This document shows, in pieces, positions 1 through 15,845 of a DNA stretch of 52,229 nt (position 1 is the stretch's first letter; each line of letters starts with the position of its first letter). This stretch comes from Alphaproteobacteria bacterium (GTDB lineage: Bacteria; Pseudomonadota; Alphaproteobacteria; Bin95), in the NCBI GenBank assembly GCA_022827685.1, contig JAJEIH010000137.1:1-52229 (forward strand), written 5' to 3'. The notes beneath the pieces were generated by a model. That model was not told the DNA's origin, did not search any database, and saw only the letters and a list, made by a program, of their open reading frames with translations. A program made the position numbers and the translations under genes.

Positions 1-2
1 TC

Positions 3-92
3 GACCGCGCATGGGAAACCCTCATGCGCGGTGTCGGTACCCCGGCCAACGACAACAACTGCGCCGACTACGCCGACAGGCACGCCGCATGA
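3..92 (+). CDS. C-terminal end of an upstream gene (partial)
   Basis: An open frame enters from the window edge and ends at a TGA at 90-92, giving about 29 residues that finish in PANDNNCADYADRHAA. Third codon positions are almost all C or G, as in real genes of this genome, whereas the other two frames are arginine/threonine-rich noise. The product cannot be recognised from so short a tail. Confidence 0.5.
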   Translation, partial: DRAWETLMRGVGTPANDNNCADYADRHAA

Positions 93-198
93 ACCCGATC
101 AGCCCAGCGATCCCGCCATCGCCATGTCAGATTCACACCCCATTCACAAGACAATATATGGAGGGAGTTATCGAGAAATTGCAATCGGAGTTGGAAGA

Positions 199-1635
199 AT
201 GAGAGCGGCGATCACTTTTTTGCTAGGAGCCGGGTTCTCTGCGCCGTTTGGTGTGCCAACTATGCGTCCGTTCCTCCATGCGTTTAAAAACACAGCAAGA
301 AAAAAGTACCCGGAGCTGTATCCAACGCTGGAACGCCACTTTGAACAACTAGGTAGCGATAGTGATATTGAAGCGCTCCTGTCAAGTTTGGGTAAGGCGG
401 AGAGGCTGAGTGAGGCGATACCAGCCGACATGAAGCCGTCAAGAGAGCTCGTAGAATGGGAGGAGGGGTCAAAGTACCTAAAGGCGCATTTAATTGCATT
501 CATTATCGAACAATGTGAAATGTTCAATCGAGACGCAGTGACTAGAGTACTTTCTCCGGGCGTGAAGATGCTGGCGGAGCACCCGAGGCTGGAGGAAGTT
601 CATATATTTACAACAAACTATGATCGTATAGTCGAATATACATGCGAGGTGGCAGCTTTGGAATTTTCGGATGGATTCGACAGACCAGGTAAGGAACTAG
701 TCGCACCATGGACTCGGCAGTATGATGGAAAGTTGAGGCTGTACAAGTTGCATGGGTCAGTTAGCTACTATATTGACCAAAGCCATAGGGAGAAGCCAAC
801 CTTTCTTAGGCTAGATAGGGGGTATCCATTACCGGGCCCTGACTTTAGGCTTTCGAGGGAAGGTAACGATCTGGAGCCACTTATGGTGGTACCGACGTTG
901 GAGAAGGACGCGTTGGGAGAGCCGTATAGCCATTTGAATCACGTTTTTACGGACACGATGGCACGAACGGAGTTGGTAGTGGTGGTGGGGAATTCGTTAA
1001 GGGACAATCATATTGTAAGTGCTATTTCGTATAATGCCGAGAACGTGGTAGTATTGCTGGTGGATGTTGATCCAGTTGCACCGGGGCAGAGGATTACAGA
1101 TATAAGGAATGTGAAGTTAAGCGCTGATGCCAGTACTTTTTTCGAGCGGTCTGTGTTCCGCTTGATGAGTTGTTTGGAAGCTTGTGCCGTTTCGGGGGGC
1201 GCAAATGAGTTGTTTGAACATTTGCAGCAATTTGCAAGAGAGGAGGGATCTAGATTGTCGAGGGGAACATCGTTGACGAATCAGCAACAGGAAGCTCTGG
1301 AAACTATGATCTCGTCTGAAGATGTCGTCAAGTTGTTCAAGGCGTTAAGTGCGCTGCGCGGGGTGAATGAAGACGGTGTGATACAGGCGGTAGCGGAGAA
1401 AGCGAATGATAAGTTGCCGACGGACCTTAGGAAGGCGGTGGCAGGTTGGCTCGGGGCCAGTACCAGGCCTTTGGCGGTTAGTGCGTTGGGAAGAATAGCG
1501 AAGGAGGATTTAGCATCCGACGTGCGGTTGGAAGCGTACTTGGCATTGTCGGCGCTGGGATCGGACGTGGCACGAGAGGTATTGGAACTAGCGAAAGGGA
1601 AGTGGCCTAGGGACTCCTTTTTTCAAGGAGAGTAA
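199..1635 (+). CDS. SIR2-like domain protein (putative NADase, defence-type)
   Basis: The protein has 478 residues. It opens with a Rossmann-type GAGFS motif (10-14), then TTNYD (138-142), KLHGS (183-187, containing the putative catalytic His) and GNSLRDNH (264-271). This order is typical of the SIR2_2-type domains found in anti-phage and NAD-cleaving proteins rather than of classical deacetylases. The last 120 residues look helical and HEAT-like. The ATG at 199 is preferred because the SIR2 motif begins immediately after it and GGAG lies just upstream; starts at 124 or 31 would add a low-complexity Thr/Pro tail. Base composition is far more AT-rich than the neighbours, which suggests transfer. 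Its partner, if any, would lie outside the window. NADase activity is inferred from the family. Confidence 0.8.
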   Translation: MRAAITFLLGAGFSAPFGVPTMRPFLHAFKNTARKKYPELYPTLERHFEQLGSDSDIEALLSSLGKAERLSEAIPADMKPSRELVEWEEGSKYLKAHLIAFIIEQCEMFNRDAVTRVLSPGVKMLAEHPRLEEVHIFTTNYDRIVEYTCEVAALEFSDGFDRPGKELVAPWTRQYDGKLRLYKLHGSVSYYIDQSHREKPTFLRLDRGYPLPGPDFRLSREGNDLEPLMVVPTLEKDALGEPYSHLNHVFTDTMARTELVVVVGNSLRDNHIVSAISYNAENVVVLLVDVDPVAPGQRITDIRNVKLSADASTFFERSVFRLMSCLEACAVSGGANELFEHLQQFAREEGSRLSRGTSLTNQQQEALETMISSEDVVKLFKALSALRGVNEDGVIQAVAEKANDKLPTDLRKAVAGWLGASTRPLAVSALGRIAKEDLASDVRLEAYLALSALGSDVAREVLELAKGKWPRDSFFQGE

Positions 1636-1650
1636 CCGGGCAACGAGGTG

Positions 1651-2055
1651 TCAAGGAGGGCCGGAGTTGGCTGCTGGGGTGGTGCAGAAGGGGTTGTCGC
1701 GGGAGGTCTTGGCTTCTGGCAAGGAAGATGAGCCCGAAGGCAGCGGGGTCGCGTGAGACGTCGTTGGTAGTCTATGCGGTGGCCCTTCGGGAAGCGTTTC
1801 AATGTCGTGTAGCCGCTGCCACGCTCCTTCCCGCCACTCAACCTCGCCGTCCGCCGATACAGCCGGTGACCGCCTCGGCGCGATGCCCTCTTGCAGCGGC
1901 TCTTCCTTCCAGCCGGAGAGCCGCATGGCCTCTGCAAGGTGGCTGTCGTTGCTAATCACAACCGCGCAATCGTACAGGTCCAGCCATCGCCACGGTGTGC
2001 CCCTGAGAGCGCCGTAGAAGAGGTTGAGGCCGTCCACATAGACGAACGTGCGCAT
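1651..2055 (-). pseudogene. NYN-domain (LabA/DUF88-like) remnant fused to a methyltransferase-like tail
   Basis: The frame starts with a clear NYN-domain N-terminus: MRTFVYVDGLNLFYGAL followed by WLDL (residues 24-27). It then jumps directly to YDCAVVISNDSHLAEAMRL (28-46). In intact family members about 100 residues separate these blocks, and the second block is usually preceded by WLD-R. The gap therefore looks like an internal deletion between two WLD-encoding stretches. After residue 47 the sequence (GWKEEPLQEGIAP) matches the tail of the methyltransferase at 3149-3640 (GWTEEPLPEGVAP), then shifts frame. The remaining residues to 1651 are unrecognised. The chimera is most likely non-functional. 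Confidence 0.6.
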
Positions 2056-2173
2056 CGAAGCCTGCCAAAAAGCAGGGGCCTCCGAAGAGGCCTCGCGCCC
2101 CGCGGTCGAAACCGCAAGGGGTGTTGGCGCTGGTCCATGCCCGCCGTCCCGGAACATCGAGCGGATTCGAGTG

Positions 2174-2566
2174 TCAGCCCCGCCGCCCCGCGAGGCGCTG
2201 CCGGCGTTGCAGGCCGTGGCGTTTCAGGAAGCGCTTCACCGCAGCGTCGCCGACGGTGAGGCCCCTGGCGGCGAGCGCGCGCTGCAAGGCCGGGACGGTG
2301 ATGGCCGGGCGCCGCTTCAGGATGCGGAACACGCGGGCGCGCTCCTCCTCGATCCGCGACCGCCGGCCCCGGGGCGGGTCCGCCCGGACATCGCCGCGCT
2401 CCTCGAAGCGCCGGACCCAGCGGAGCACGCTGGTCGCGCACACCTCGAATTTCAGCCCCGCCTCGCGGTAGCTCATGCCCCGCTCCAGCACCGCCGCCAC
2501 CGCCCGGCGGCGCAGGTCCTCGCCCACCGCCTTGCCGGGTCTCCGGCCTCCCAGTCCGTCCGCCAT
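2174..2566 (-). CDS. orphan IS630-type helix-turn-helix protein (OrfA-like), copy 1
   Basis: The product is a 130-residue basic protein. It has a first HTH (GEDLRRRAVAAVLERGMSYR, then SVLRWVRRF) and a second winged-HTH-like segment (ITVPALQRALAARGLTV, then VKRFLKRHGL). This is the N-terminal DNA-binding region of IS630-family transposases. No DDE catalytic partner follows downstream in any frame. The ATG at 2566 is chosen because upstream sequence encodes only arginine-rich low-complexity protein. A paralogue lies at 31490-31918. It could be a relic OrfA or a stand-alone DNA-binding protein. Confidence 0.6.
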   Translation of the reverse strand: MADGLGGRRPGKAVGEDLRRRAVAAVLERGMSYREAGLKFEVCATSVLRWVRRFEERGDVRADPPRGRRSRIEEERARVFRILKRRPAITVPALQRALAARGLTVGDAAVKRFLKRHGLQRRQRLAGRRG

Positions 2567-3148
2567 CCTGTCCGTCCTCCTTTCCGTCGCCGTTGCTTCC
2601 GGCGCCGCCGCGCCGGTCCGTTTCAGGTGAGTGAGCCGGCCGGGCCCGTTTTCGCCCCGCCGGCCGGCCCGGATTCGTTCCAGGTCCAACGAGCCGGGGC
2701 CTTCCATCGGCCGGCGGGCGGGCGCACCTGTCCTGTTGACTTGTCACCCCTCGACACAGCTCCCAGGTCCCTCGCGAAGCGCCGCCCGGCGCCCCGAATC
2801 ATGTCCACGTCATCGCCTCGCTTCCTCGCGGTTGGCACGGGTTTCCGAGGGGTATATAGAGAACAAACGGGCGGGATGCAAGTCTTTTGGGGGAATTTAT
2901 ACCGGATTTCGCAGTGCGGGGCTTCGCCCGCCGCTTCCGCTGGCGCGAAAGCGGCCCCCCACCCGTCCTCCCCCGCAAGCGGGAGAGGGGAAACAGAGGG
3001 AGGCGGGAGGACAGGGGAATGGAAGGAGGCGGCCCGCTCCCGTGAAAACCCCTCTCCCGCCGGGCGGGAGAGGTTGGGTGCCTGCCCCCGCGAAGGCGGG
3101 GGAGGGCCCCTCGGCGTGACGGGAGGTTGCCGGGCCCTGCCCGCCCGC
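2567..3148. other. gene-free stretch with GC-rich palindromes
   Basis: No credible coding sequence is seen. An AT-richer patch near 2850-2910 (including tatatagagaac) is followed by palindromes built on the agcgggagagg / cccctctcccg theme around 2965-3075. A 22-nt palindromic unit lies at 3081-3102 and recurs at 3730-3751. The stretch looks like REP-type intergenic repeats between two leftward genes. Confidence 0.5.
3081..3102. repeat. REP-like palindromic repeat, copy 1
   Basis: The unit cctgcccccgcgaaggcggg plus gg forms a short hairpin (CCCCCGC..GCGGGGG). An identical copy is at 3730-3751 and an inverted near-copy at 3921-3942. Confidence 0.6.
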
Positions 3149-3640
3149 TCAGCCCGCCATCGGGCGGCGGTAGAGGCGGTAGCGGCCCGGGGCGACGCCT
3201 TCCGGCAGCGGCTCCTCCGTCCAGCCGGGCAGCGGCATGGGCTGGTCGCCGGCGAGGACGGCGCCGGGGGCTGTCAGGCGGGGGAGCAGGGGGGCCAGCG
3301 CGGCAGCCAGCGCCAGCGAGGCCCGCCTGTCGCCGGTGCCGATGTCGGCGTGGACGAGGGCGGCGGGGGCGGGCAGGCGGACATGCGGGAGGGTGTCGAG
3401 GAAGTCTCCGACGATGAGGCGGTCTTCGGGCGGCGTGCAGTCGGGGTGGGCGGCGGGCGCGCGCTCGAACACGAAGATGTCGCGGCCGGGCAGGCGCGCG
3501 CGGAGATGGTCGTAGCTGCGCCCGTTGCCGAGCCCGAGCTCCAGCACCGGGCCGGGCACGCCCGCGATGAGCGCCGCCGCCCGGTCGAGGCAGGCGCGCT
3601 GGGCCGTGAGGCGGCGGATGGCGCTGTCGAGCCGGGTCAT
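3149..3640 (-). CDS. small class I SAM-dependent methyltransferase
   Basis: This 163-residue protein has a SAM-binding motif I, VLELGLGNGRS, at 32-42, and an acidic position after beta-2 (FVFERAP). The rest follows a Rossmann-like pattern (LIVGDFLDTL, LVHADIGTG). There is no obvious substrate-recognition domain, so the target is unknown. It is short for the class but has a complete core. Palindrome-rich spacers flank it on both sides, so it is probably monocistronic. Its C-terminal segment (GWTEEPLPEGVAP..RYRLYRRP) reappears in degenerate form in the pseudogene at 1651-2055. Confidence 0.75.
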   Translation of the reverse strand: MTRLDSAIRRLTAQRACLDRAAALIAGVPGPVLELGLGNGRSYDHLRARLPGRDIFVFERAPAAHPDCTPPEDRLIVGDFLDTLPHVRLPAPAALVHADIGTGDRRASLALAAALAPLLPRLTAPGAVLAGDQPMPLPGWTEEPLPEGVAPGRYRLYRRPMAG

Positions 3641-4043
3641 GCCGGGGCGCGCGAGGACTTGCGGACATGCCCCCCTCCCGCGCGGCCCGGCAACGCCGCA
3701 CCCCGCGCCCCTTCGGCCCCCGCGCCCCGCCTGCCCCCGCGAAGGCGGGGGTCACCCCGGCCCCGCCTTTCGCCACCCCGGCCCTGCTCTTCGTCACCCC
3801 GGCCCCCGAGCCGGGGTCCAGCTCCAGCCCCCGATGCCGCCGCAGCCGGTGGAGAACGGGACCGACCGCCGAAGCTGCCGCCAGAGCCGAGGCTGGGCCC
3901 CGGATCGGGGTCCGGGGCGACCCCCGCCTTCGCGGCGCAGGCAAGTCCGGGCGTGACGATAAGGGGGCATGGCGGGAAGAGCGCATGGCGCGACGGGCCG
4001 TCCGGTGATCGGTGCGGGCTGCGGTCCAAGGGTCCCCCCCCCC
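3641..4043. repeat. intergenic block of REP-like palindromes, copies 2 and 3
   Basis: No gene is supported here. The 22-nt unit of 3081-3102 occurs exactly at 3730-3751 and in inverted, slightly diverged form at 3921-3942. Between them are repeated caccccggcc units and the complementary arms cccgagccggggtccag / ccggatcggggtccgggg, so the transcript could fold into a long cruciform. Such blocks usually lie between genes as transcript-end or mRNA-stability elements. Confidence 0.55.
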
Positions 4044-4502
4044 TCACCCGGCGGCGAGCTGGGCGCGGGCTTCGCGGAGGTCGTTGGTGGTCCGGTCGAG
4101 GCGCTGGGCGAGCTCGCGCATGATCTCGACCGCCATCTGCGGGAACTCGGCCACCAGGCGGAAGAACAGCTCCTTGGAGATGCGCAGCGCCGTCATCGCC
4201 TCCGTGGTGCGCACGGTGGCGGTCCGCGGCACGTCGATCAGGATCGCGATCTCGCCGATGATGTCGTTCCTGCCGAGGTCCGCCACCTTGAGCGGGCCCT
4301 GGGGGGTCTCGACCAGCACCTCGGCCGCGCCCTCCAGCACGATATAGGCGGCGTCCCCGATATCGCCCTCCTCCACCACGAGGTCGCCCGGCCGGAAGCG
4401 CACCCGCTCGCTGGTGAAGGCGAGCAGGCGCAGCTTCGAGGCCTCGATGCGCTGGAACAGCGGGATGGCGCGGAGCGCCTCGACTTCTTCGTTCAGCGCC
4501 AT
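4044..4502 (-). CDS. cyclic nucleotide-binding domain protein
   Basis: The 152-residue protein is a single cNMP-binding (CAP_ED) beta-barrel. The phosphate-binding cassette is readable as GEIAILIDVPRTATV (83-97), with the usual Glu (84) and Arg (93), so ligand binding is plausible. No HTH follows, which makes it a stand-alone sensor or an accessory subunit rather than a Crp/Fnr regulator. The ATG at 4502 has AGGAGG just upstream; the longer frame overlaps the ABC gene. It begins 13 nt after the ABC exporter stop, so the two are almost certainly one operon, and it may gate or tether that exporter. Confidence 0.8.
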   Translation of the reverse strand: MALNEEVEALRAIPLFQRIEASKLRLLAFTSERVRFRPGDLVVEEGDIGDAAYIVLEGAAEVLVETPQGPLKVADLGRNDIIGEIAILIDVPRTATVRTTEAMTALRISKELFFRLVAEFPQMAVEIMRELAQRLDRTTNDLREARAQLAAG

Positions 4503-4515
4503 GGTCCGTTCCTCC

Positions 4516-7167
4516 TCATGACTGCCGCAGGAGCCGGGCGAGCGGGCCGCCGGCTTCGCTGAGCGCCTCATATGCGCCGTCCTCGACCGTGCGCCCGTCC
4601 TCGACGACGACGGTGCGCGGGAAGTCCTCCGCCAGCTCCGGCGATTCCAGCACCCACAGGATGCCGCGCCCCTCCATCGCCGTGCGGGCGGCGAGGAAGA
4701 GCATCCGGCGCGCCACCCGCTCGATGCCGGCGGTCGCCATGTTGACCACCAGCAGCGCCGGGCGCTTGAGCAGGGCGCGGGCGAAGGCGAGCTTCTGGCG
4801 CTGGGTCTGCGTCAGGCGGCTGCCGCCGATGCCGACCTCGAAGGCGAGCCCCGCCTCCATCACCGCCTCGCGGATGCCGACCTCGTCCACGACCTCGCCA
4901 AGCAGCGCGCTCACCCGGGCCGCGCCATGCGCCTCGCCGTGGCGGATGCGCCCGAACAGGATGTTGTCCTGGAGGCTCGCCTGCGCCGCATAGCGGTCCG
5001 CGTCGAAGAACTCGACCGAAGCGCGGTCCGCCTCCGGCAGGCGCTCGCGGAACAGGCGGCGCGCGGCCAGCAGGTCGCGGCGGATGTCGTCGTCGATGAG
5101 GCCGAGGCGGTGGCGCTCCGGGATCAGCAGGAAGGGCAGGCCCAGCAGCCGCTCGCGCTCCGCCGCCTCCAGCCCCTCCAGCCCGAGCCGGTCGGCGCGC
5201 GCGGCGATCGCCCGGAAACCGGGCAGGTCGTCGGCGTCGATGAAGGAGAACTGCTGGAAGAGCTCGTGGCCGGGGTCGATGTCGGCGAACAGCTCCACCA
5301 TGATCTTCGCCACCTGGAGGCCGATGCCCTCCAGCCGGTCCAGCAGGCCGGCTTCCTCCAGCACGCCGCGCACGAAGGGGTGGCCCGCAAGGTTCCCGAC
5401 CTCGAAGGCCGGGCCGATGGGCGCGCCGAACAGGAGGTTCTCCGCGAGCGTTGCGTTGACGTTGTAGGCGTCCGCGTCGAAGGGCTCGATGGGGGCGGCC
5501 GCGCCCGGCGCGTCGAGGCGGGAGCGGAGTGCGGCGCGCGCCTCCAGCACCCGTCCCGCGAGGCCCGGATGGGCGTCCGGGTCGAGCACGCCGCGCAGCC
5601 CCAGCGTGTAGAGGTCGTCGTCGAGGCCGACGGCCGTCAGCACCTCCACCATCCGGCGCGCCATCTCCCGGCCGGGGGCGGCGCCGGCGGCCTCGTAGTC
5701 CACCCAGTCCGCACCGAAATCGGCGTCGCTGTTGCCGGAGCGCCGGGCCTCGGCCGCGCGGGCCTCGCGGCGGGCGGCCTCCTCCGGGCCGAGCTCGGCG
5801 GGGCGGAGCGGCCGGTGGCGCAGGCCGAACAGCAGGTTCTCGCGCACGGTCGCGTTGAAGAGGCTGGCGTTCGGCCCGACATAGGCCGCCTGGCGCCCGA
5901 ACACCGCCTGCGGCAGGTCGGCGAGCGCGGTGCCGTCGAGATGCGCGCGCCCGCCGGTGACGACCGCCAGCCGGGCGGCGAGCAGGCCTAGCTCCTCCTT
6001 GCCGCCGCCGCTCGGGCCGACGACGGCGACATGCTCGTCCAGGCCGAGCGACAGGGTGGCGCTGCGCACCGGCTGGGAAATCTCGTCCTCCGCATAAGCA
6101 GCATTCTCAAACCCAAGCCGGCTTTCCGGCCCGATCCGCGGCAGGGCCTCGGCCTCCTCCACCTGCAGGGCCTCGTCGATCATGCCGGGCGGATCGAACT
6201 GTTGGACGACCTGGTCGTATTTGATGCGCGCGTCGGCCTGCTGCTGGTAGTAGGCCAGCAGCTCCTTCCAGGGCGCGGACATGTCCTTGTAGGCGGCGAG
6301 CACGGCGACCATGGCGCCGAAACTGAGGCGGCCCTCGATGATCAGGTAGCCGCCGATCGAGTAGAAGAAGAAAGGGGTGAGCTGCGCCAGGAAATTGTTG
6401 AGGAACTTGATGAAGAACTTGCGCCGGAAGATCTCGTAGCGGATGTCGTAGATGCCGCCGAGGCGGTGGGCAACGTCGGCGCGCAGCCGGTTGGAGCCGT
6501 CATCGGCGTGGACCGCCTCGATGGTCGAGATCGACTCGCCGATCCGGTCGGACAGCCGGCGCACATGCTGCACGCGCTGCTTGGCGAGCGCCGTCACCCG
6601 GCGCTGGAGCTTCGGGATCGCATACATCTGGAACGGGTAGAGCGCGAGCGCGGCAAGGCCCAGGATGGGCTCCTGGATCAGCATGAAGGCGCCGATGGTG
6701 ACGAGGATGCCGAGCTGATAGACCGGCTGGGCCAGCGCATCGCCCATGAAGCCGCCGAGCGGCTCGACCTCCTGCGTCACCATCGGGATGATCTCGCCCT
6801 GGCCCGTGCGCTTGAACACCGGCAGCGGGAAGCGCAGCAGGCGCGAATAGAGGTCGTAGCGCAGGCGCCGCAGCAGCCGTTCGCCGAGGCGGCCCTTGCC
6901 GGTGTTGATGGCGAATTTGAACGCGCCGTTCATGAGCACGAGGCCGAGGAAGGCGAAGCTCAGCACCATCAGATACTCGATCTGCCCGAGCTCCAGCCCG
7001 AGCAGCGACCGGGGGAAGCCCGAGCCGCTGATGGCGTCGTTGATGATCTGCTTGGGCAGTTCGAGCGAAACGTAGAGCACCGGGAAGGACGCCACGGTGA
7101 GCGCGAGCAGGAAGAGCTGCTGCGCCAGGCTGTGGCGGAACACGAAGCCGTAGATCGTCTTTTCCAT
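4516..7167 (-). CDS. ABC exporter (permease-ATPase) with degenerate, expanded NBD
   Basis: The protein has 883 residues from the ATG at 7167; starts at 7206 or 7251 are possible. Residues 1-325 form a typical six-helix ABC exporter domain. The ATPase half is odd. The Walker A-like loop GPSGGGKEE (about 384-392) lacks the Ser/Thr after Lys. The signature region reads SRLTQTQRQK (about 783-792) instead of LSGGQ. The Walker B-like strand ALLVVNMAT (about 804-812) lacks the Asp-Glu pair. A motif of the form NATxxENLLFG occurs three times (about 437-448, 571-581 and 728-739), as though the Q-loop-to-signature part had been duplicated or expanded. The cargo is probably the product of the divergent glycosyltransferase operon, which is an inference from context. 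Confidence 0.75.
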   Translation of the reverse strand: MEKTIYGFVFRHSLAQQLFLLALTVASFPVLYVSLELPKQIINDAISGSGFPRSLLGLELGQIEYLMVLSFAFLGLVLMNGAFKFAINTGKGRLGERLLRRLRYDLYSRLLRFPLPVFKRTGQGEIIPMVTQEVEPLGGFMGDALAQPVYQLGILVTIGAFMLIQEPILGLAALALYPFQMYAIPKLQRRVTALAKQRVQHVRRLSDRIGESISTIEAVHADDGSNRLRADVAHRLGGIYDIRYEIFRRKFFIKFLNNFLAQLTPFFFYSIGGYLIIEGRLSFGAMVAVLAAYKDMSAPWKELLAYYQQQADARIKYDQVVQQFDPPGMIDEALQVEEAEALPRIGPESRLGFENAAYAEDEISQPVRSATLSLGLDEHVAVVGPSGGGKEELGLLAARLAVVTGGRAHLDGTALADLPQAVFGRQAAYVGPNASLFNATVRENLLFGLRHRPLRPAELGPEEAARREARAAEARRSGNSDADFGADWVDYEAAGAAPGREMARRMVEVLTAVGLDDDLYTLGLRGVLDPDAHPGLAGRVLEARAALRSRLDAPGAAAPIEPFDADAYNVNATLAENLLFGAPIGPAFEVGNLAGHPFVRGVLEEAGLLDRLEGIGLQVAKIMVELFADIDPGHELFQQFSFIDADDLPGFRAIAARADRLGLEGLEAAERERLLGLPFLLIPERHRLGLIDDDIRRDLLAARRLFRERLPEADRASVEFFDADRYAAQASLQDNILFGRIRHGEAHGAARVSALLGEVVDEVGIREAVMEAGLAFEVGIGGSRLTQTQRQKLAFARALLKRPALLVVNMATAGIERVARRMLFLAARTAMEGRGILWVLESPELAEDFPRTVVVEDGRTVEDGAYEALSEAGGPLARLLRQS

Positions 7168-7293
7168 GCCGACCGGCTCCCGCGCCTCGACAAACCTCCG
7201 CATCATGGGCCTATCGGGCGCAATTGAAAGTGCGGCCCGCGCACACGACATTCAATGGAGCAGCGGCCCCGGAGATATGCGATAGTCGGTCCC

Positions 7294-8499
7294 ATGCGAG
7301 GCAAGCGTATCCTCATCTACAGCCATGACAGCTTCGGGCTCGGCCATCTGCGCCGCTGCCGGACGATCGCGCATGCGCTGGTCGGCAGGCGCCGCGACCT
7401 CTCGGTGCTGATCCTCTCCGGCTCGCCGATCATCGGCAGCTTCGACTTCCGCACCCGCGTCGATTTCGTCCGCGTGCCGGGCATGATCAAGCTGCGCAAC
7501 GGCGATTACACGCCGCTCAACCTGAACATGGCGCCTGAAGAGACGCTGGCCATGCGCGCCTCGATCATCCGCCACACGGCGGAGATCTTCGACCCCGACC
7601 TGTTCCTGGTGGACAAGGAGCCGCTCGGCCTGCGCGGCGAGGTGGCCGAGACGCTGGAAATCCTGCGCCGGCGGGGCACGCGCCTCGTGCTCGGCCTGCG
7701 CGACGTGATGGACGAGCCGGAAATGCTGGCGCCGGAATGGGAGCGCAAGAATGTCGCCCCGGCGCTCTCGCGGCTCTATGACCAGATCTGGATATACGGC
7801 CTGCCGCAGATCTGCGACCCGCTGGAGGGGCTCGGCCTGCCGGAGCAGGTACAGCGCAAGGCGGTCTATACAGGCTACCTGCCGCGCGGCGTGCCGGATG
7901 CGCCGCTTTCCCCGGAAGCCGAATGCGCGGCGGACGAGCCCTTCGTGCTGGTCACGGCCGGCGGCGGCGGCGACGGCGACGAGTTGATCGACTGGGTTCT
8001 GCGCGCCTATGAACATGCCGGCCCGATGCCGTGGCGGGCCGTGCTGGTGTTCGGGCCCTTCATGCCCTCGGAGCGCCAGGCGGAGTTCCGCCGGCGGGCG
8101 GCGGCGCTGCCGCAGGTCTCGACGCTCGTGTTCGACGCGCATCTGGAAGCCCTGATGGAGCGGGCCTCCGGCGTGGTCGCCATGGGCGGCTACAACACGT
8201 TTTGCGAGATACTCTCGCTCGACAAGCCGGCCGTCATCGTGCCGCGCACCCGGCCCCGGCTGGAGCAGCGCATCCGCGCCGAACGCGCGCAGGAGCTCGG
8301 CCTCGTGCGGATGCTCGACCCGGACTATCTTGCCGACACCCGCGCCATGGCGGCGGCGATCCGCAATCTCGCCGTGCAGAACCGCCCGTCCGAAGTGGTC
8401 GTGCCGGGCCTGATGGACGGTGTGGAGAGCATCGCGCGGCTCACCGACCTGGCGCTGGAGCGGCCGGCAGCCGAGCCGCTCAGGCTTGTGCAGCCTTGA
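7294..8499 (+). CDS. MurG-like glycosyltransferase (GT-B fold)
   Basis: The 401-residue protein starts with a GT-B nucleotide-sugar fold opening, ILIYSHDSFGLGHLRR (6-20). It has a family-28-like C-terminal half with MGGYNT (297-302) followed by KPAVIVPR, the donor-binding region of MurG-type enzymes. The start at 7294 puts this motif at the N-terminus; an ATG at 7255 would add 13 residues. It is the first gene of a six-gene overlapping operon and is divergent from the ABC exporter across a spacer of about 90-130 nt that should hold both promoters. A paralogue with the same GHLRR opening is at 11325. Substrates are unknown. Confidence 0.8.
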   Translation: MRGKRILIYSHDSFGLGHLRRCRTIAHALVGRRRDLSVLILSGSPIIGSFDFRTRVDFVRVPGMIKLRNGDYTPLNLNMAPEETLAMRASIIRHTAEIFDPDLFLVDKEPLGLRGEVAETLEILRRRGTRLVLGLRDVMDEPEMLAPEWERKNVAPALSRLYDQIWIYGLPQICDPLEGLGLPEQVQRKAVYTGYLPRGVPDAPLSPEAECAADEPFVLVTAGGGGDGDELIDWVLRAYEHAGPMPWRAVLVFGPFMPSERQAEFRRRAAALPQVSTLVFDAHLEALMERASGVVAMGGYNTFCEILSLDKPAVIVPRTRPRLEQRIRAERAQELGLVRMLDPDYLADTRAMAAAIRNLAVQNRPSEVVVPGLMDGVESIARLTDLALERPAAEPLRLVQP

Positions 8500-9728
8500 C
8501 CGTCGCGGTCATCGTCAAGGGCTATCCGCGCCTCTCCGAGACGTTCATCGCGCAGGAAATCCTGGGTCTTGAGGAACGCGGCGTTGCCCAGCGCATCGTC
8601 TCGCTGCGCCGCCCGACCGATCCGGCCCGCCACCCGATGCACGAACGGATCGCCGCGCCGGTCCACTATCTGCCGGAATATGTGCGCGAGGAGCCGCGCC
8701 GCGTCTGGCGGGGCTGGCGGCGTGCGCGCCGCCTGCCGGGCTACCCCGCCGCCCGCGCCGCCTGGCTCCGCGACTGGCGGCGCGACCCGACGCCGAACCG
8801 GGGACGGCGCTTCGCCCAGGCGGCGGTGCTGGCGGCGGAACTGCCGGAGGACGTCGAGCGTTTCCACGTGCATTTCCTGCACACGCCCGCCTCGGTCGCC
8901 CGCTATGCGAGCCTGATGACCGGCCTGCCCTGGTCCTGCTCGGCCCATGCCAAGGACATCTGGACGACGCCCGAATGGGAGAAGCGCGAGAAGCTCGCGG
9001 CGTGCGAATGGCTCGCGACCTGCACAAGCGCGGGCGCTGCGCATCTGAAGTCGCTCGCGGCCGCGCCGGAGCGGGTGATGCTGGTCTATCACGGCCTCGA
9101 TCTCGGCCGTTTCCCCTCCCCGCCGGAGCGCGGCGCGCCCGACGGCAGCGACCCGGCCCGGCCCGTGGTCATCGCCTCGGTCGGCCGCGTGGTCGAGAAG
9201 AAAGGCTACGACACGCTGCTCGCGGCGCTTAGCCTGTTGCCGCCGGACCTGCACTGGCGTTTGGTGCATATCGGCGGCGGCAAGCTTGCCGGGCGGCTGG
9301 AGCGGGCGGCGGCGGGCCTGCCGGCCCGGTTCCTCGGCGCGCAGCCGCAGGACAGGGTCGTGGAGGAACTCCGCAAGGCGGACCTCTTCGCGCTTGCCTG
9401 CCGGATTGCCCCGGACGGCGACCGCGACGGCCTGCCCAACGTGCTGATGGAGGCGGCCTCGCAAGGCCTGCCGGCCGTTTCCACGCGGGTCTCGGCGGTG
9501 CCCGAATTCGTGCGCGCCGGCGAGACCGGGCTGCTGGTCGAGCCGGAGGACCCGCAGGCCCTTGCGGCGGCGCTCGCCGCGCTCATCCGCAACCCGGCAG
9601 AGAGGGCCGCCATGGGACGCGCGGCCCATATGCGCGTCAGCACGGCCTTTTCCTTCGAGGCCGGCATCGACCGGCTGGCAGAGCGCTTCGGGACACCGGC
9701 ATGCGCATTGCGTTCTATGCGCCGCTGA
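8496..9728 (+). CDS. GT4-family glycosyltransferase
   Basis: The 410-residue protein begins at a TTG that overlaps the previous stop as TTGA. The first residues, TVAVIVKGYPRLSETFIAQE, form the standard opening of exopolysaccharide-type GT4 enzymes. The C-terminal half has SVGRVVEKKGYDTLL (about 227-241), GDRDGLPNVLMEAASQGLP (about 309-327, with the E-x7-E-type donor site) and ETGLLVEPEDP. It is probably cytoplasmic or membrane-associated, adding a sugar during assembly of a surface glycan. It overlaps the next gene by 28 nt, so translation is coupled. Confidence 0.85.
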   Translation: MTVAVIVKGYPRLSETFIAQEILGLEERGVAQRIVSLRRPTDPARHPMHERIAAPVHYLPEYVREEPRRVWRGWRRARRLPGYPAARAAWLRDWRRDPTPNRGRRFAQAAVLAAELPEDVERFHVHFLHTPASVARYASLMTGLPWSCSAHAKDIWTTPEWEKREKLAACEWLATCTSAGAAHLKSLAAAPERVMLVYHGLDLGRFPSPPERGAPDGSDPARPVVIASVGRVVEKKGYDTLLAALSLLPPDLHWRLVHIGGGKLAGRLERAAAGLPARFLGAQPQDRVVEELRKADLFALACRIAPDGDRDGLPNVLMEAASQGLPAVSTRVSAVPEFVRAGETGLLVEPEDPQALAAALAALIRNPAERAAMGRAAHMRVSTAFSFEAGIDRLAERFGTPACALRSMRR

Positions 9729-10744
9729 AACCGCCGAACCATCCCGTGCCTTCGGGCGAAAGGCAGATTGCGCGGCTCTTCCTGCGCGCGCTGGAAGCGG
9801 CGGGCCACAAGCCCTTCCTTGCCTCGCGCTTCCGCCCGCTGGACAAGCGGGGCGACCCCCGCCGCCAGCAACGCCTCCGGGCGCTCGGGGGCAGGCTCGC
9901 CGGGCGTCTGGAGGCGCGCCTCCCCGCCTTCGACGTCTGGTTCACCTACCATCTCTACTACAAGGCGCCGGACTGGCTCGGGCCCCGCCTCTCGGCAGCG
10001 CGCGGCGCGGCCTACTGGGTAGCCGAAGCCTCGCACGCGCCAAAGCGCGCCGGCGGCCCCTGGGACATCGGGCACCGCGCGGTCGGGGATGCGATAGCCC
10101 GCGCCGACCGCCTCTTCTGCCTCAACCCGAACGACCGTGCCTGCCTCGCGCCGCTGGCCGCGCCGGACCGCCTCATCGACCTGGCGCCGTTTCTCGACGC
10201 CTCCGCCTGGCGGGCGGCGTCCTGCCGGGGCGACCCGCCTGTGCTGGTGACGGTCGCGATGATGCGCGAGGGCGCCAAGCTCGCCTCATACCGCCGGCTG
10301 GGCGCGGCGCTGGCGGTGCTGGACGACCTGCCCTGGCGGCTGCTCGTGGTGGGCGACGGGCCGGCGCGCGGGCAGGTCGAGGCGGCATTGCCGGCCGGGC
10401 GCATCTGCTGGCTCGGGAGGCGAAGCGAATCCGAATTGCCAGCCATCCTGGCGAATGCGGACCTCTTCGTCTGGCCGGCGGAGCGCGAGGCCATCGGCAT
10501 GGCCCTGCTGGAGGCCGCGGCCGCCGGCCTGCCGGTCGTGGCGGCGGACACGGACGGCGTGCCCGCCGTGGTGGCGCATGGCGAAACCGGCCTGCTGGCG
10601 CCGGCGGGCGATGCGGACGCCTTCGCCCGCTGCCTGCGGGTCCTGCTGACGGACCCGGACCGGCGGCGGGAGATGGGCGCGGCGGCCAGGAAGCGCGTGC
10701 TTGTCCGCCATGACATTGACCGGGCGGCAGCGGCGCTGGCATGA
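9701..10744 (+). CDS. GT4-family glycosyltransferase
   Basis: The 347-residue protein starts MRIAFYAPLKPPNHPVPSGE. It has a GT-B C-terminal domain with LLVVGDGPARGQVEAAL (about 213-229), an acidic donor motif in EREAIGMALLEAAAAGLPVV (about 261-280) and GETGLLAPAGDADAFA. The N-terminal domain is shorter than usual. The start overlaps the upstream gene by 28 nt and the stop shares ATGA with the next gene. It is part of the same glycan operon; acceptor and donor cannot be predicted. Confidence 0.85.
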   Translation: MRIAFYAPLKPPNHPVPSGERQIARLFLRALEAAGHKPFLASRFRPLDKRGDPRRQQRLRALGGRLAGRLEARLPAFDVWFTYHLYYKAPDWLGPRLSAARGAAYWVAEASHAPKRAGGPWDIGHRAVGDAIARADRLFCLNPNDRACLAPLAAPDRLIDLAPFLDASAWRAASCRGDPPVLVTVAMMREGAKLASYRRLGAALAVLDDLPWRLLVVGDGPARGQVEAALPAGRICWLGRRSESELPAILANADLFVWPAEREAIGMALLEAAAAGLPVVAADTDGVPAVVAHGETGLLAPAGDADAFARCLRVLLTDPDRRREMGAAARKRVLVRHDIDRAAAALA

Positions 10745-11328
10745 CGCTGCTCGCCCTCATCCGTCACGGGCCTACTGCCTGGAACCGGGAAAAACGGGTC
10801 CAGGGGCGGCGCGACATACCCCTCGATGCCGAGGGCGTGGCGGAGGTTGCGCGCTGGAAATTGCCGCCGGCCTTCTCCTCTTTCGACTGGGCGGCGAGCC
10901 CGCTTGCCCGCGCGCGGCGCACGGCGGCGGTGCTGGCCGGCGGCGCGGTTCCGTGCGCGCCGGCGCTCATCGAGATGGACTGGGGCGACTGGGAAGGCCG
11001 GCGGTTGGCCGAACTCCGCGCCGAACTCGGGCCTGAGATGGCCGAAAACGAGGCGCGCGGCCTCGACTTCCTGCCGCCCGGCGGCGAGAGCCCGCGCATG
11101 GTCCAGCGCCGTCTCGCGCCCTGGCTCGGGGAGGTCGCCCGCCGCGGCAGGCCGACGGTCGCGGTCGTCCATCGCGGCGTGATTCGCGCGCTCTACGCCG
11201 CAGCCGCCGGATGGGACATGCTGGAACCGCCGCCCCGCGCACTCTCCTCGCCGGCGGCGCATCTGTTCGAAGTCGCGCCAGGCGGACGGCCGCGGCTCCG
11301 CTGCCTCGATGTGCAGGCGTTCCGATGA
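10741..11328 (+). CDS. histidine phosphatase superfamily protein
   Basis: The 195-residue protein has the phosphoglycerate-mutase-like LIRHGPTAWN signature (catalytic His9), the acidic residue in IEMDWGDWEG (Glu78) and the second His in VAVVHRGVIRA (His144). All three active-site elements are therefore present. The length fits small-molecule phosphatases such as alpha-ribazole or sugar-phosphate phosphatases. Both ends overlap neighbouring glycosyltransferase genes by ATGA, so a role in dephosphorylating a sugar-phosphate intermediate of the same pathway is a reasonable inference. Confidence 0.85.
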   Translation: MTLLALIRHGPTAWNREKRVQGRRDIPLDAEGVAEVARWKLPPAFSSFDWAASPLARARRTAAVLAGGAVPCAPALIEMDWGDWEGRRLAELRAELGPEMAENEARGLDFLPPGGESPRMVQRRLAPWLGEVARRGRPTVAVVHRGVIRALYAAAAGWDMLEPPPRALSSPAAHLFEVAPGGRPRLRCLDVQAFR

Positions 11329-12458
11329 AGGTCTTCTTCTGGGTCCAGCATCTGCTCGGCATCGGCCATCTGCGCCGGACGCTGTCGCTGGCGAGGGCGG
11401 CGGCCGCAGCCGGCATCGAAACGGTTGTCGCCTCGGGCGGCCTGCCGGTGCCCGGCGCCGATCCCGGCGGGGCGAAGCTGGTGCAGCTTCCTCCGGTGCG
11501 CGCCGTGGACCGCTATTTCAAGCAACTGGCCGACGAGCGGGACCGGCCCATCGACGACGCCTGGCGCGGCAAGCGAAAGGCGGCGCTGTTCAAGGCCTAT
11601 GAGAAAGCGCGGCCGGATGCGCTGGTTACGGAGCTTTTCCCCTTCGGCCGCCGGCAGTTGCGGTTCGAACTGGAGCCGCTGCTGGCGCGGGCGAAGGCCG
11701 ACGGCTGCACGACCGTCTCCTCGGTGCGCGACATTCTGGTCGAGCCGGACAAGCCCGAGCGCATCGGCGAGATGCTGGAGCGGGTGAAGCACTGGTACGA
11801 TCTGGTGCTGGTCCACGGCGACCCGGCCTTCGTGCCGTTCGATGTGACCTTTCCCGGCCTCGACCGGATCGCGCCGCTCGTGCGCTATACCGGCTACACG
11901 GTGGACCGGGCCGACGCCCCACCTGGCGGCGACGACGGCGAGGGCGAAGTGCTGGTCTCGGCCGGGGGCGGGGCGGTCGGCGAGCCGCTGCTGCGCGCCG
12001 CGCTTGCCGCCCGCCCGCTCTCGGCCGCCCGCGACCGCCGCTGGCGCTTCCTCGTCGGCGAAGGGCTGCCGGACGCCGTGTTTTCCGACCTCGTGCGCGC
12101 CGCGCCCTCCGGCGTCATCGTCGAACGCGCCCGGCCCGATTTCCAGGCGCTGCTCGCCCGCGCGCATCTCTCGGTCTCCCAGGGCGGCTACAACACGGTG
12201 ATGGAAGTGCTGGCGGCGGGGCTCCGCGCGGTCGTCGCGCCCTATGCGGGCGGGCATGAGAGCGAACAGACCCTGCGCGCCCATGCGCTCGCGGAGCGCG
12301 GGGCCCTGCAGGTCGTGGCCGAGGACGAGCTGTCGCCGGAGCGCCTGGCCGCCGCCATAGACAGGGCGCTCGCCGGCCCGCAGCTGTCCACCGCCGGTAT
12401 CGACCTTGGCGGCATTGCCGCGACGATCGCCCTGTTGCAGGGCCTCGATGGCCGCTGA
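11325..12458 (+). CDS. MurG-like glycosyltransferase, paralogue of the first operon gene
   Basis: The 377-residue protein starts MKVFFWVQHLLGIGHLRR, matching the GHLRR opening of the gene at 7294. Its C-terminal half has LVSAGGGAVG and SVSQGGYNTVMEVLAAGL (about 284-301) and then a glycine- and His-Glu-rich donor loop, GGHESEQ. It overlaps the upstream stop by ATGA and the downstream gene by 11 nt. The two paralogues in one operon suggest successive, related sugar additions or a two-subunit enzyme. Confidence 0.8.
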   Translation: MKVFFWVQHLLGIGHLRRTLSLARAAAAAGIETVVASGGLPVPGADPGGAKLVQLPPVRAVDRYFKQLADERDRPIDDAWRGKRKAALFKAYEKARPDALVTELFPFGRRQLRFELEPLLARAKADGCTTVSSVRDILVEPDKPERIGEMLERVKHWYDLVLVHGDPAFVPFDVTFPGLDRIAPLVRYTGYTVDRADAPPGGDDGEGEVLVSAGGGAVGEPLLRAALAARPLSAARDRRWRFLVGEGLPDAVFSDLVRAAPSGVIVERARPDFQALLARAHLSVSQGGYNTVMEVLAAGLRAVVAPYAGGHESEQTLRAHALAERGALQVVAEDELSPERLAAAIDRALAGPQLSTAGIDLGGIAATIALLQGLDGR

Positions 12459-13158
12459 CCCCTGGCAGGCGCTGGCCGACGAGCTCGACCTCTGGCCGGA
12501 GCCCGCGGAATTCTGGTGGCGCGATGACGACGCCGCAGCCTGGTCGCCCGCACTGGAACGGCTGGTCGAGGCGCTCGACGGCGTTCCCTTTGCGCTTGCG
12601 GTCATTCCCGCGGAGGCCGCCGCCGACCTCCCGGGCGCGATCCTCCAACATGGGTGGCGGCACGGAAACCATGCCGGCCCGGCGGAGAAGAAGGCCGAGT
12701 TCGGCCCCCACAGGCCGCAGGAAACCATGCTGGCCGAGCTGGAGGCCGGTCGGGAGCGGCTCGAAGCGCTGTATGGCGGGCGCTTTCTAGCGGTCCTCGC
12801 GCCGCCCTGGAACCGGATCGAGCCGGCGCTGGCGGCGCGGCTGCCGGCGGCGGGCTGGCGGGGCCTCTCGGTTTTCCGCCCGCGCCGAAGCCCGTTCGAG
12901 ACCAACGCCCATGTCGATCCGGTGGCCTGGCGCACCCATCGCGGCTTTCGCGGCGAGGCCGAGGCGCTGGGCGACATCGCCGCCCATCTCCGCGCCCGGC
13001 GGACAGGAACGGTGGACCGGAGCGAGCCCACCGGCATCCTCTCCCACCACCTTGTCGCCGACGAGGCGGGCTTTGCCTTCTTCCGCGAATTCGCCCGCTT
13101 CGTCGCGGCCCATCCCCGCGCCGACTGGCGGGACCCCGCAACGCTCTGGCCGGGTTGA
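12448..13158 (+). CDS. polysaccharide deacetylase-like protein
   Basis: The 236-residue protein has motifs resembling the NodB fold: an acidic WWRDDDA (23-29), a His-rich HGWRHGNH (68-75) and APPWNRI near 128-134. This suggests a metal-dependent amidase/deacetylase core, although the spacing is not that of classical NodB and there is no signal peptide. It is the last gene of the glycan operon. It could trim acetyl groups from an amino sugar on a cytoplasmic intermediate. Confidence 0.7.
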   Translation: MAADPWQALADELDLWPEPAEFWWRDDDAAAWSPALERLVEALDGVPFALAVIPAEAAADLPGAILQHGWRHGNHAGPAEKKAEFGPHRPQETMLAELEAGRERLEALYGGRFLAVLAPPWNRIEPALAARLPAAGWRGLSVFRPRRSPFETNAHVDPVAWRTHRGFRGEAEALGDIAAHLRARRTGTVDRSEPTGILSHHLVADEAGFAFFREFARFVAAHPRADWRDPATLWPG

Positions 13159-13173
13159 ACCATCCGGGCCAAG

Positions 13174-13203
13174 TTGTAGTTTTGCAGCAAACCGCTGTAT
13201 CTC
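13174..13203 (+). promoter_or_regulatory. possible sigma70 promoter of the Rrf2 gene with internal palindrome
   Basis: TTGTAG (13174-13179) and TATCTC (13198-13203) are 18 nt apart. The spacer contains the palindrome TTTGCAGCAAA (13181-13191). It sits 78-107 nt before the Rrf2 start. This is weak, pattern-only evidence; autoregulation is possible. Confidence 0.25.
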
Positions 13204-13280
13204 TCACTCAGCGCATCGTCCTGCGGATCATCTGCGGCTTGTCGGACAAACCCGACGCCCAACCCTGCGAGGCCGGCTAC

Positions 13281-13739
13281 ATGAAAATGACGCGATACAG
13301 CGATTACTCCCTGAGGACGCTCATCTATCTCGGTCTCCACCGCGACCGGCGCTGCACGATCCGGGAAATCGCCGGCGCCTACGGCATCTCGGAAAACCAC
13401 CTGATGAAACTGGTCCACCAGCTGGGTCGGGAGGGCTTCGTCAGGACGACCCGGGGGAAGAAGGGCGGCATCGAACTTGCCATGCCGGCGCGCGAGATCG
13501 GCGTGGGCGCGGTGCTTCGCGCAATGGAAGGGAATTTCCACCTGGTCGAATGTTTCAAGGAAGGCGGGAACACCTGCCCGATCGCGGGGCCCTGCGTGTT
13601 GAGCGGGGTTCTGGACGAGGCCCTGCAAGCCTTCATGGAGGTGCTCGACCGACATACGCTTGAGGACCTTCTGGTCCCGTCGCATGCGCTCGGCCGGATA
13701 TTCGCGGCCAGGCAGGAGGCGTCACTCCGCCTGCAATAA
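13281..13739 (+). CDS. nsrR: Rrf2-family NsrR-type nitric oxide-sensing repressor
   Basis: The 152-residue protein has an N-terminal winged HTH (MTRYSDYSLRTLIYLGLH, then TIREIAGAYGISENHLMKLV). It carries three cysteines, C91, C99 and C105, in the context ECFKEGGNTCPIAGPC, the NsrR iron-sulfur ligand pattern rather than the IscR spacing. NsrR proteins release DNA when their cluster reacts with NO and control nitrite/NO metabolism. The convergent neighbour is copper nitrite reductase, which fits. An ATG two codons in (13287) is an alternative start. Confidence 0.85.
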   Translation: MKMTRYSDYSLRTLIYLGLHRDRRCTIREIAGAYGISENHLMKLVHQLGREGFVRTTRGKKGGIELAMPAREIGVGAVLRAMEGNFHLVECFKEGGNTCPIAGPCVLSGVLDEALQAFMEVLDRHTLEDLLVPSHALGRIFAARQEASLRLQ

Positions 13740-13745
13740 GCGGCT

Positions 13746-13786
13746 CGCCGGGCGCGGCGTTCGGCCCCGGCGCGTCGGCTTTTTTC
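13746..13786 (+). terminator. possible terminator after nsrR
   Basis: A 7-bp stem CGCCGGG (13746-13752) / CCCGGCG (13766-13772) with a 13-nt loop is followed eight bases later by a T-run (13780-13785). The gap before the T-run makes it imperfect. Confidence 0.35.
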
Positions 13787-13829
13787 GGAGCCGCAGGTGA
13801 CAGGCTTGCCGCGCTGGTGGTAGAGGGTG

Positions 13830-13932
13830 AATGGGCGGCGCTGCGCGGTTGCGCCGCCCGTGCAGCGGCAGGGTGGGCTGGAGGAGCGCCTTCCCTGCCG
13901 TCTGCCGGGGGTGAACGCCGCGAATGCGGCGG
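13830..13932. other. two strong hairpins between convergent nsrR and nirK
   Basis: GGGCGGCG..CGCCGCCC (about 13830-13857) and CGCCGC-gaat-GCGGCG (about 13917-13932) are near-perfect stems just beyond the nirK stop on the minus strand. Neither has a T-run. They are probably mRNA 3'-end structures for nirK. Confidence 0.4.
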
Positions 13933-13954
13933 GCGGCCCTGCCGCCGGAGCCGC

Positions 13955-15076
13955 CTATGCCGGAATCGGTCCCGGAGCCTGGACCTGCGCCATCAGGTCG
14001 TCGTCCCAGTCCCCGTCGACCACGACATGGGCGAGCGCCCCCAGTTGCACGGCCTCGATGAGGTTGTGCGAGAGGTACACATACACGCCCGGCTGCCGGA
14101 AGGTGTAGAGCGCCGCGCCCGCCGAGCCGCCCCGGATGAACCAAGTCTCGAGGCCTTCCATCGGCGGATCGATGAACGAGCCTTCCTCCCAGACATAGTC
14201 GCCGTGGCCGCCGATGAGGTGCGGCCTCGAATCGCGGTTGGCCTGGGAGTGGACGAACAGCACCGACTCGCCGACCGCGGCCGTCAGCGCATTGTCGCCT
14301 GTGAGCGCGCCGACCTTGCCGTTCATCACGACATGGGTGGGCGTGAGCGTCCGCATCACGTCCAGCACATCGGCCATCGCGTCGCTGTGCGACTCATATT
14401 GCATGTAGTCGCCATCGGCGTTCCGCGGCACGTAGAAGTCCTGCTCGCCGACATAATAGACCTTGTCGTAGCGGACGGGATTGCCGTTGCGGTCCTTCAG
14501 CCCGTCCCTCGGCAGCACCATGACCGCGCCGTTCATGCCGGAAACCACGTGGTAGGGAATCATGATCCCGCCCGGAGCGCAGTGGTAGATGAAGGTGCCG
14601 GCCTTGATCGCCTTCCAGCGCAGCACGACCTGTTCGCCCGGCTGGACGAGCGTGAGGCCGCCGCCGCCGAGCGCGCCCGTGGAGGCGTGGAAGTCGATAT
14701 TGTGCTCCATCACGTTGGTCGAAGGGTTTTTCAGCGTGAGCTCGATGTAGTCGCCCTCATGGCAGACCATCAGCGGGCCCGGGATGGAACCGTTGAACGA
14801 AAGCGCGTTCAGCACGGTTCCGTCGTCGTCGATCTCCCGCTTTTCCTCGTGGACGACCAGTTCCACCTCGATGATCTTCGGGCCTCCGCTGGCGACCTGC
14901 TCGTGCGCGGGCGCGAAGGGAGGCGCCACGAGTTCCTGCTTGACCCGGGGCAGGCTGTCGAGGTCGGCCTTGACCGCGGCGCTGCCGGTGGAGGCCTTCA
15001 CGATGGGGCTCATGGCGGACATAGCGCCCAGTGTGCCGCCGGCGGTCAGGACCTGGCGTCTGTTCAGCTGTAGCAT
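13955..15076 (-). CDS. nirK: copper-containing nitrite reductase
   Basis: The 373-residue protein has a Tat-like leader ([10 protein letters not shown], 5-14) that sends it to the periplasm, where it reduces nitrite to NO. Two cupredoxin domains carry a full ligand set. The type 1 copper ligands are His125, Cys166, His176 and Met181. The type 2 copper ligands are His130, His165 and His286. Catalytic Asp128 and His248 are also present. AGGAG lies upstream of the ATG at 15076. Convergent nsrR and an AT-rich imperfect palindrome about 110 nt upstream suggest NO-responsive control. No nor genes are in the window. Confidence 0.95.
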
Positions 15077-15182
15077 GGCTCGCGTCTCCTATCTGCTGTT
15101 GCCCGGCAGCCCGGTTTCGATGCGCCCAAACGCGGACCGAGCTTGCAGGCGGCGCATTCGCGATCCGCAGATGAGGAACTAT

Positions 15183-15205
15183 AATATGTATTATTGATAT
15201 AGGTT
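15183..15205 (-). promoter_or_regulatory. candidate NsrR/NNR-type operator upstream of nirK
   Basis: AATATGTAT-tattg-ATATAGGTT is an imperfect inverted repeat (6 of 9 positions) in a sharply AT-rich patch of an otherwise GC-rich region. It resembles the AT-rich half-sites used by NsrR. It lies 107-129 nt before the nirK start and could also affect the rightward gene. Confidence 0.4.
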
Positions 15206-15350
15206 ATTGAATGTCAAGCAGGAACCGGCGCTTGTCCGAAGGCGGAATTGCGGCGGCGGGCGGAATCGCGCAGACTCGAAAAAAGGTCCGGTGCAGAAGG
15301 GGGGCCGCGCGATCTCGACGACGGCGGAAGCGGCCGCGCCAACGGGCGGC

Positions 15351-15845
15351 ATGGCCTTGGGTTATCCGGCCCGCACGCTCTGGCCGGACTATACACGCGC
15401 GGGCATCGGGCTGGCGATTGCGCTGCTGCCCATGCCGTGGGTGCCGCCCGGCAGTTTCGGCAATTGGCTGCTCGGCCTGCTGGCGCTGCTGTTCGGCGGC
15501 TTCGCGGTGATGACCTGGGTGAAACATCGCTCGACGGTGCAGATGAACCCGGCGGGCATACGGATTCTCGGTCCCGTCGGCCGCACGATTGCCTGGGAGG
15601 CGCTCGACCGGCTGGCGCTGCGCTTCTATTCGACCCGCAAGGAGCGCGGCCACGGCTGGATGCAGTTGAAGCTTTCGGGCGGCGGGACGACGATCACCAT
15701 CGACTCCAACCTGGACCGCTTCAATCTCGTCGCTGCGCGGGCGGCGCGGGCGGCGGCGGAAAATGCGCTGGCGCCCGACCCCACGACACTCGCCAATCTG
15801 GAAGCGATCGGCGTCTGGCCGGTCGATCTCGAGGCGGGGCGGTGA
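15351..15845 (+). CDS. hypothetical membrane protein, two TM helices plus a possible PH-like domain
   Basis: The 164-residue protein has two hydrophobic segments near the N-terminus (about GIGLAIALLPMPWV and WLLGLLALLFGGFAVM). They are followed by a soluble beta-rich part (VQMNPAGIRILGPVGRTIAW, then ITIDSNLDRFNLV) that resembles the bacterial PH-like domains of small membrane proteins. This assignment is by pattern only. The ATG at 15351 is chosen because the TM segments follow closely; a TTG at 15207 would add a basic, unstructured leader. It may belong to the ABC-importer operon, starting 55 nt upstream of the duplicated leader. Confidence 0.6.
   Translation: MALGYPARTLWPDYTRAGIGLAIALLPMPWVPPGSFGNWLLGLLALLFGGFAVMTWVKHRSTVQMNPAGIRILGPVGRTIAWEALDRLALRFYSTRKERGHGWMQLKLSGGGTTITIDSNLDRFNLVAARAARAAAENALAPDPTTLANLEAIGVWPVDLEAGR

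Follow-up and report, generated by a model that had tools for sequence, protein, structure and literature searches.

The nucleotide-binding domain (NBD) is normally the least-changing part of an ABC transporter. A gene in the window, the whole 52,229-nucleotide stretch of alphaproteobacterial DNA analysed here, encodes an exporter half in which this domain is greatly enlarged and departs from the canonical motifs. A preliminary description, made from the sequence, left a choice between a regulatory or scaffold ABC protein and an expanded ATPase in which catalysis is arranged in a new way. We asked what the enlarged domain consists of, whether it could still hydrolyse ATP, and with what the protein may work.

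The exporter gene and its family

The open reading frame, its strand and its coordinates were checked and agreed with the preliminary description. The protein comprises 883 amino acids, and its start Met is also the start Met of its relatives. The membrane half, which had been called normal, was assigned by Pfam to ABC_membrane at residues 53-291 with 83 bits against a cut-off of 28, as expected of a six-helix membrane domain. ABC_tran was found by Pfam as two stretches, and PDB alignments placed the NBD halves at about residues 350-450 and 770-880. The ATPase half, previously given as about 480 residues, measured about 540 (345-883).

4516..7167 (-): ABC exporter half-transporter P0001, 883 aa (ORF, strand and coordinates checked)
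6193..7167 (-): membrane domain, residues 1-325, six-helix ABC_membrane (Pfam PF00664, 3.3e-23, and AlphaFold model)

A profile search detected the exporter family in 132/385 alphaproteobacterial genomes and in 119 of the 315 genomes of good quality. A phylum-wide draw yielded 32 genomes out of 398, 31 of them in Alphaproteobacteria; the remaining one was a membrane-domain-only match. Members also occur on plasmids, including those of Rhizobium and Sinorhizobium, under the annotation "ABC transporter ATP-binding protein". The fetched loci provided 152 sequences, of which 112 were retained as representatives after removal of those more than 80% identical; this number includes one artefact, a contig-end ORF without the insert (L044), which was considered as a canonical member and excluded. 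A second, divergent family copy (L060, 50% identity) was seen in genome G003, which has 9% contamination. A search of a literature library found no paper on this exporter family. The msbA2 gene of S. meliloti is a candidate named member, and its correspondence to the pSymB gene is putative. For R. johnstonii 3841, pRL110056 from a transposon study (PMC11103875) was considered as the family gene and set aside, as no mapping was obtained.

A single NBD fold with an insertion

The full AlphaFold model, a monomer built with 20 sequences, had a mean pLDDT of 82, with membrane helices that were partly weak. In structural alignments it aligned along entire exporters, and the closest half-transporter by Foldseek was the cyclic glucan exporter NdvA/Cgt. 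All residues of the ComA NBD (239/239) aligned to the model NBD with an rmsd of 1.9 Å and a Z of 28.4. Because the full ComA NBD aligns, the domain is read as one NBD fold with an insertion and not as three ATPases; three separate ATPase domains were also ruled out, since the protein has a single half with Walker A and a single half with Walker B.

The insertion lies between the Q-loop and the signature and is about 320 residues long. About 110 non-redundant relatives share it at almost constant length, the 450-770 segment measuring 314-330 aa in most of the 112 representatives. It had no match in Pfam, PHROG or PDB sequences, and Foldseek against the PDB gave a best E of 0.65. The three ENLLFG-type blocks of the preliminary description were all found, as NATVRENLLFG (438-448), NATLAENLLFG (571-581) and QASLQDNILFG (729-739), and the extra segment holds the second and third. 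The Asn of each copy is conserved in 111/112 representatives; Asn 444, 577 and 735, one per module, are invariant or nearly so.

4858..5817 (-): extra segment (451-770), Q-loop to signature (near-constant length; model pLDDT 94.5)
5491..5889 (-): module 1 (427-559), Q-strand, NATVRENLLFG, helices, tail GLAGRVLEARAALRSRL (profile comparison)
5017..5490 (-): module 2 (560-717), strand, NATLAENLLFG, helices, tail DDIRRDLLAARRLFRERLP (profile comparison and structural match)
4738..5016 (-): module 3 (718-810), strand, QASLQDNILFG, signature-like helix, Walker B-like strand (canonical NBD match)

Profile-profile comparison bore out the recurrence of the post-Q-loop motif. Heads 2 and 3 matched at E 4.7e-17, heads 1 and 2 at 1.5e-7, heads 1 and 3 at 7.9e-8, and tails 1 and 2 at 5.7e-9; in each of these comparisons the observed score exceeded those of all 100 column shuffles. 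For module 3 alone, the match to a canonical NBD began at the Q-strand and extended to Walker B, at E 1.8e-19. The tails of modules 1 and 2 showed no significant sequence homology to the true signature helix in the profile comparison. In the proposed register, the helix equated with the signature helix carries one invariant Arg per module (Arg 544, 703 and 797).

The extra segment was also modelled alone with 100 sequences (pLDDT 94.5, pTM 0.85). When the Foldseek candidates for this model were aligned with VIA-align, nine ABC exporters came out on top, all through the region from the Q-loop to the signature (for example P-gp 472-544, TAP 550-624 and Atm1 443-515), with Z 5.0-5.6 and rmsd 2.5-3.3 over 69-78 residues; the next, unrelated match had Z 3.1. 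The Z values are modest, and it is the run of nine consecutive matches to the same family and the same region that makes the predicted likeness persuasive. Homology of the tails to the signature helix is thus suggested by the modelled structure for module 2 and by register for the rest. Because repeat profiles, the conserved Asn and Arg of each module and the structural matches agree, the helical (signature) subdomain appears to have been triplicated in tandem, with a worn LSGGQ in the last copy only. The insertion is not a simple one, since it contains two extra helical-subdomain units.

Loss of catalytic residues

The preliminary description had noted Lys followed by Glu in Walker A, SRLTQTQRQK at the signature position and NMAT at Walker B, and all three readings held: K390 and E391 in GPSGGGKEE, residues 783-792, and VVNMAT at 807-812. 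The Q-loop Gln and the H-loop His, which it did not list, are also absent from the window protein; the residues at the positions of Walker B Asp/Glu, Q-loop Gln and H-loop His are NM, P and E. GPSGGGKE thus stands in place of the GxxGxGK(S/T) of Walker A and RLTQTQ in place of LSGGQ, and the protein departs from the features of ATP-hydrolysing ABC proteins at Walker B, Q-loop and H-loop as well.

5992..6018 (-): Walker A-like GPSGGGKEE (384-392), Ser/Thr replaced by Glu391 (Asp/Glu here in 85/112 representatives)
4786..4824 (-): signature-like GSRLTQTQRQKLA (782-794), where LSGGQ is expected (motif reading)
4729..4755 (-): Walker B-like LLVVNMATA (805-813), without the catalytic Glu (motif reading)

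The loss spans the whole family, although its degree is uneven. With L044 set aside, no member among the 112 representatives had the full set of seven canonical catalytic residues. Walker A Lys with Ser/Thr was present in 7/112 and both Walker B Asp and Glu in 8/112; 22 representatives had the Q-loop Gln and 35 the H-loop His, whereas the GG of LSGGQ was seen in a single one. The Thalassospira lineage retains GKS and DE and has lost the signature and the H-loop; judged from the retained GKS and DE, its members may bind and hydrolyse ATP. The window protein ranks among the most degraded and is the sole case in the family of Met at the catalytic Glu position. Of the outcome that the preliminary description had named as its refutation, one canonical NBD with a simple insertion and intact catalytic residues, only the first half was observed: the fold was that of one complete NBD with an insertion, but its catalytic residues were degraded family-wide.

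Such losses could come from a decaying gene or an assembly error. The presence of the family in a third of the alphaproteobacterial genomes searched, its constant architecture, the invariant repeat residues and a dN/dS below 1 against close relatives in the membrane domain, both NBD halves and the insert already refute this explanation, to which we attach a negligible probability.

The rate of change differs between the domains. Mean identity was 39% in the NBD core and 53% in the membrane domain, and the core was lower in 95% of 6105 pairs. Among 86 pairs of control exporters drawn from these genomes, only 8% showed lower conservation in the NBD than in the membrane domain. The NBD core of the family evolves faster than the membrane domain, the opposite of the control exporters.

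We also observed membrane-domain-only paralogues of about 400 aa without an NBD (L220-L223, L227:8773-10077 and L228:6776-7957), with no canonical NBD-like ORF in the fetched stretches. Because the membrane domain exists here without any attached NBD, these paralogues weakly favour an ATP-independent role. Copper genes (multicopper oxidase, PCu(A)C chaperone and copper resistance) adjoin L223, L227 on a Phaeobacter plasmid and L228 on a Sulfitobacter plasmid, and do not adjoin L221.

These data bear on the possibility that the protein is an ATP-driven exporter with a re-tooled site, in which Mg binding or catalysis would fall to the acidic residue that follows Lys/Arg in Walker A and the modules would only tune activity. 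In place of the Walker A Ser/Thr, the family shows a fixed preference for Asp/Glu (76%) and not a random loss; Lys/Arg precedes the acidic residue in 82/112 representatives, Glu or Asp occupies the Walker B catalytic position in 79/112, the position of the D-loop Asp816 is conserved in 101/112, and the NBD is under purifying selection. However, the window protein combines Met at the catalytic Glu with the absence of the Q-loop Gln, the H-loop His and the signature GG, its family's NBD core changes faster than the membrane domain, and membrane-only paralogues exist. We regard a re-tooled ATPase as rather unlikely. The interpretation offered by the preliminary description was supported in part: the evidence points to no new catalytic arrangement, and lost or weakened catalysis fits equally well or better.

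A cyclic nucleotide-binding partner

Whether the family always pairs with a cNMP protein had been raised as a point to survey. A gene for a cyclic nucleotide-binding domain (CNBD) protein lies directly downstream in 90 representatives, and the domain is fused C-terminally in 15, giving 105/111.

4044..4502 (-): partner gene, cyclic nucleotide-binding domain protein, 152 aa (Pfam PF00027, 4.2e-19)

The fused domain of Thalassospira was confirmed by Pfam (PF00027, 2.9e-20). The partner encoded in the window retains the pocket GEIA..PRTAT. Across the cNMP domains, the Arg for the cyclic phosphate is present in 142/142 and the Glu in 135/142, as required of a phosphate-binding cassette. Unlike the ATP site of the exporter, the predicted ligand pocket of the partner is conserved.

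Genomic neighbourhood

A divergent operon of glycosyltransferase (GT) and associated genes lies beside the exporter gene.

7255..8499 (+): GT28-like glycosyltransferase, divergent operon (Pfam; neighbour conserved in relatives)
8490..9728 (+): GT4 glycosyltransferase, start approximate (Pfam; conserved neighbour)
9701..10744 (+): GT4 glycosyltransferase (Pfam; conserved neighbour)
10741..11328 (+): histidine phosphatase superfamily protein (Pfam; conserved neighbour)
11325..12458 (+): second GT28-like glycosyltransferase, start approximate (Pfam; conserved neighbour)
12451..13158 (+): protein conserved in the cluster, start approximate (no Pfam match; resemblance to deacetylases judged by eye only)

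At least four of these six genes were found in 45/61 unfused members for which 6 kb of upstream sequence was available, with the operon extending as far as Microvirga. The operon was beside none of the 15 fused members, which may handle a different substrate; the operon link may instead reflect lineage history. On S. meliloti pSymB (L226), an FkbM methyltransferase follows the ABC-cNMP pair and the GT operon is reduced.

At all Thalassospira loci examined (L020-L043; for example L021:6114-7876), an MBL-fold gene of the Pfam Apyc1 family is located directly upstream of the fused gene. The Apyc1 family is named for cyclic-nucleotide cleavage. In most Thalassospira loci, an Ion_trans channel gene also precedes the fused ABC-cNMP gene at a distance of about 1 kb. 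Together with the near-universal sensor partner and the eroded ATP site, this gene would suit a regulator or a cNMP-gated, channel-like ABC protein that does not pump, comparable to SUR or CFTR. Nevertheless, the Ion_trans gene is limited to Thalassospira, a glycan operon stands beside most members and the membrane domain has the standard exporter fold, so we judge this explanation improbable.

Degenerate halves are common in heterodimeric exporters such as TmrAB and TM287/288, and the genome has other exporters, among which a canonical half could be encoded elsewhere. Partners are usually neighbours, however, and at the loci fetched with flanks of about 7 kb around the family gene, no other ABC exporter half was found in that range; a heterodimer is accordingly given very little weight.

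Elsewhere in the window, an ORF at 31-1635 (+) has SIR2-like features by eye (GAGFSAPFG, TTNYD and KLHGS) and is possibly a defence-type SIR2 protein. A transposase-like ORF fragment with an IS630-type helix-turn-helix, also recognised by eye, lies near the cluster at 2174-2707 (-), and an Rrf2-type regulator stands beside a divergent NirK-like copper nitrite reductase, again by eye, at 13234-15076. An RNA family search of positions 1-15500 gave no match.

Proposed model

Here, we propose a cNMP-controlled exporter half for glycans or glycolipids with a non-canonical ATP site, a triplicated helical subdomain and a sensor that docks on the extra modules; we rate the chances of this model as evenly balanced. 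The protein, a half-transporter with the fold of type IV ABC exporters, would probably act as a homodimer and would export or flip the product of the neighbouring glycosyltransferase operon, a glycan or glycolipid. Its ATP hydrolysis would be strongly reduced or lost. The partner CNBD, a separate protein here and a C-terminal domain in other lineages, would control activity, and the extra helical modules probably provide the surface on which the sensor docks or through which its state is passed on to the coupling helices of the membrane domain. More tentatively, ATP hydrolysis might have been abandoned altogether, and the NBD with its triplicated signature subdomain might act as a lever that responds to cyclic nucleotides and gates the membrane domain, a possibility that we consider less likely than not.

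A widespread family whose NBD is eroded, enlarged and tied to a sensor would be a test case for the extent to which transport and ATP hydrolysis can be uncoupled. The family would also give Alphaproteobacteria, rhizobia among them, a route for surface glycans under second-messenger control, and its database label conceals the unusual architecture.

Comparison with known systems

The type IV ABC exporters NdvA/Cgt, MsbA, SAV1866 and MsRv1273c/72c resemble the window protein in membrane domain and NBD fold by full-length structural alignment. The present family differs from them in its incomplete catalytic set, in its long segment with two more helical-subdomain units and in its cNMP partner. 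TAP, TmrAB and TM287/288 are exporters with one degenerate and one canonical ATP site (PMC7756269). They share altered Walker B and signature residues under selection with our family, in which both sites would be degenerate if the protein is a homodimer, and in which no partner gene is nearby.

Two systems tie a cNMP-binding protein or domain to an ABC exporter. NHLM bacteriocin-type export proteins with cNMP domains (TIGR03896) share this trait, but the match was weak (score 48 against a cut-off of 161) and the window locus has no peptide cluster. HetC is a cyanobacterial peptidase-ABC exporter whose CNBD is needed for function (ppGpp) and whose catalytic residue is essential (PMC10986499). 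It has an N-terminal CNBD and a C39 peptidase, a domain for which the window protein had no Pfam match, whereas our family combines an eroded ATP site with a CNBD that is either a separate protein or C-terminal. As an exporter coupled to a CNBD, HetC provides a precedent for a CNBD-dependent ABC exporter.
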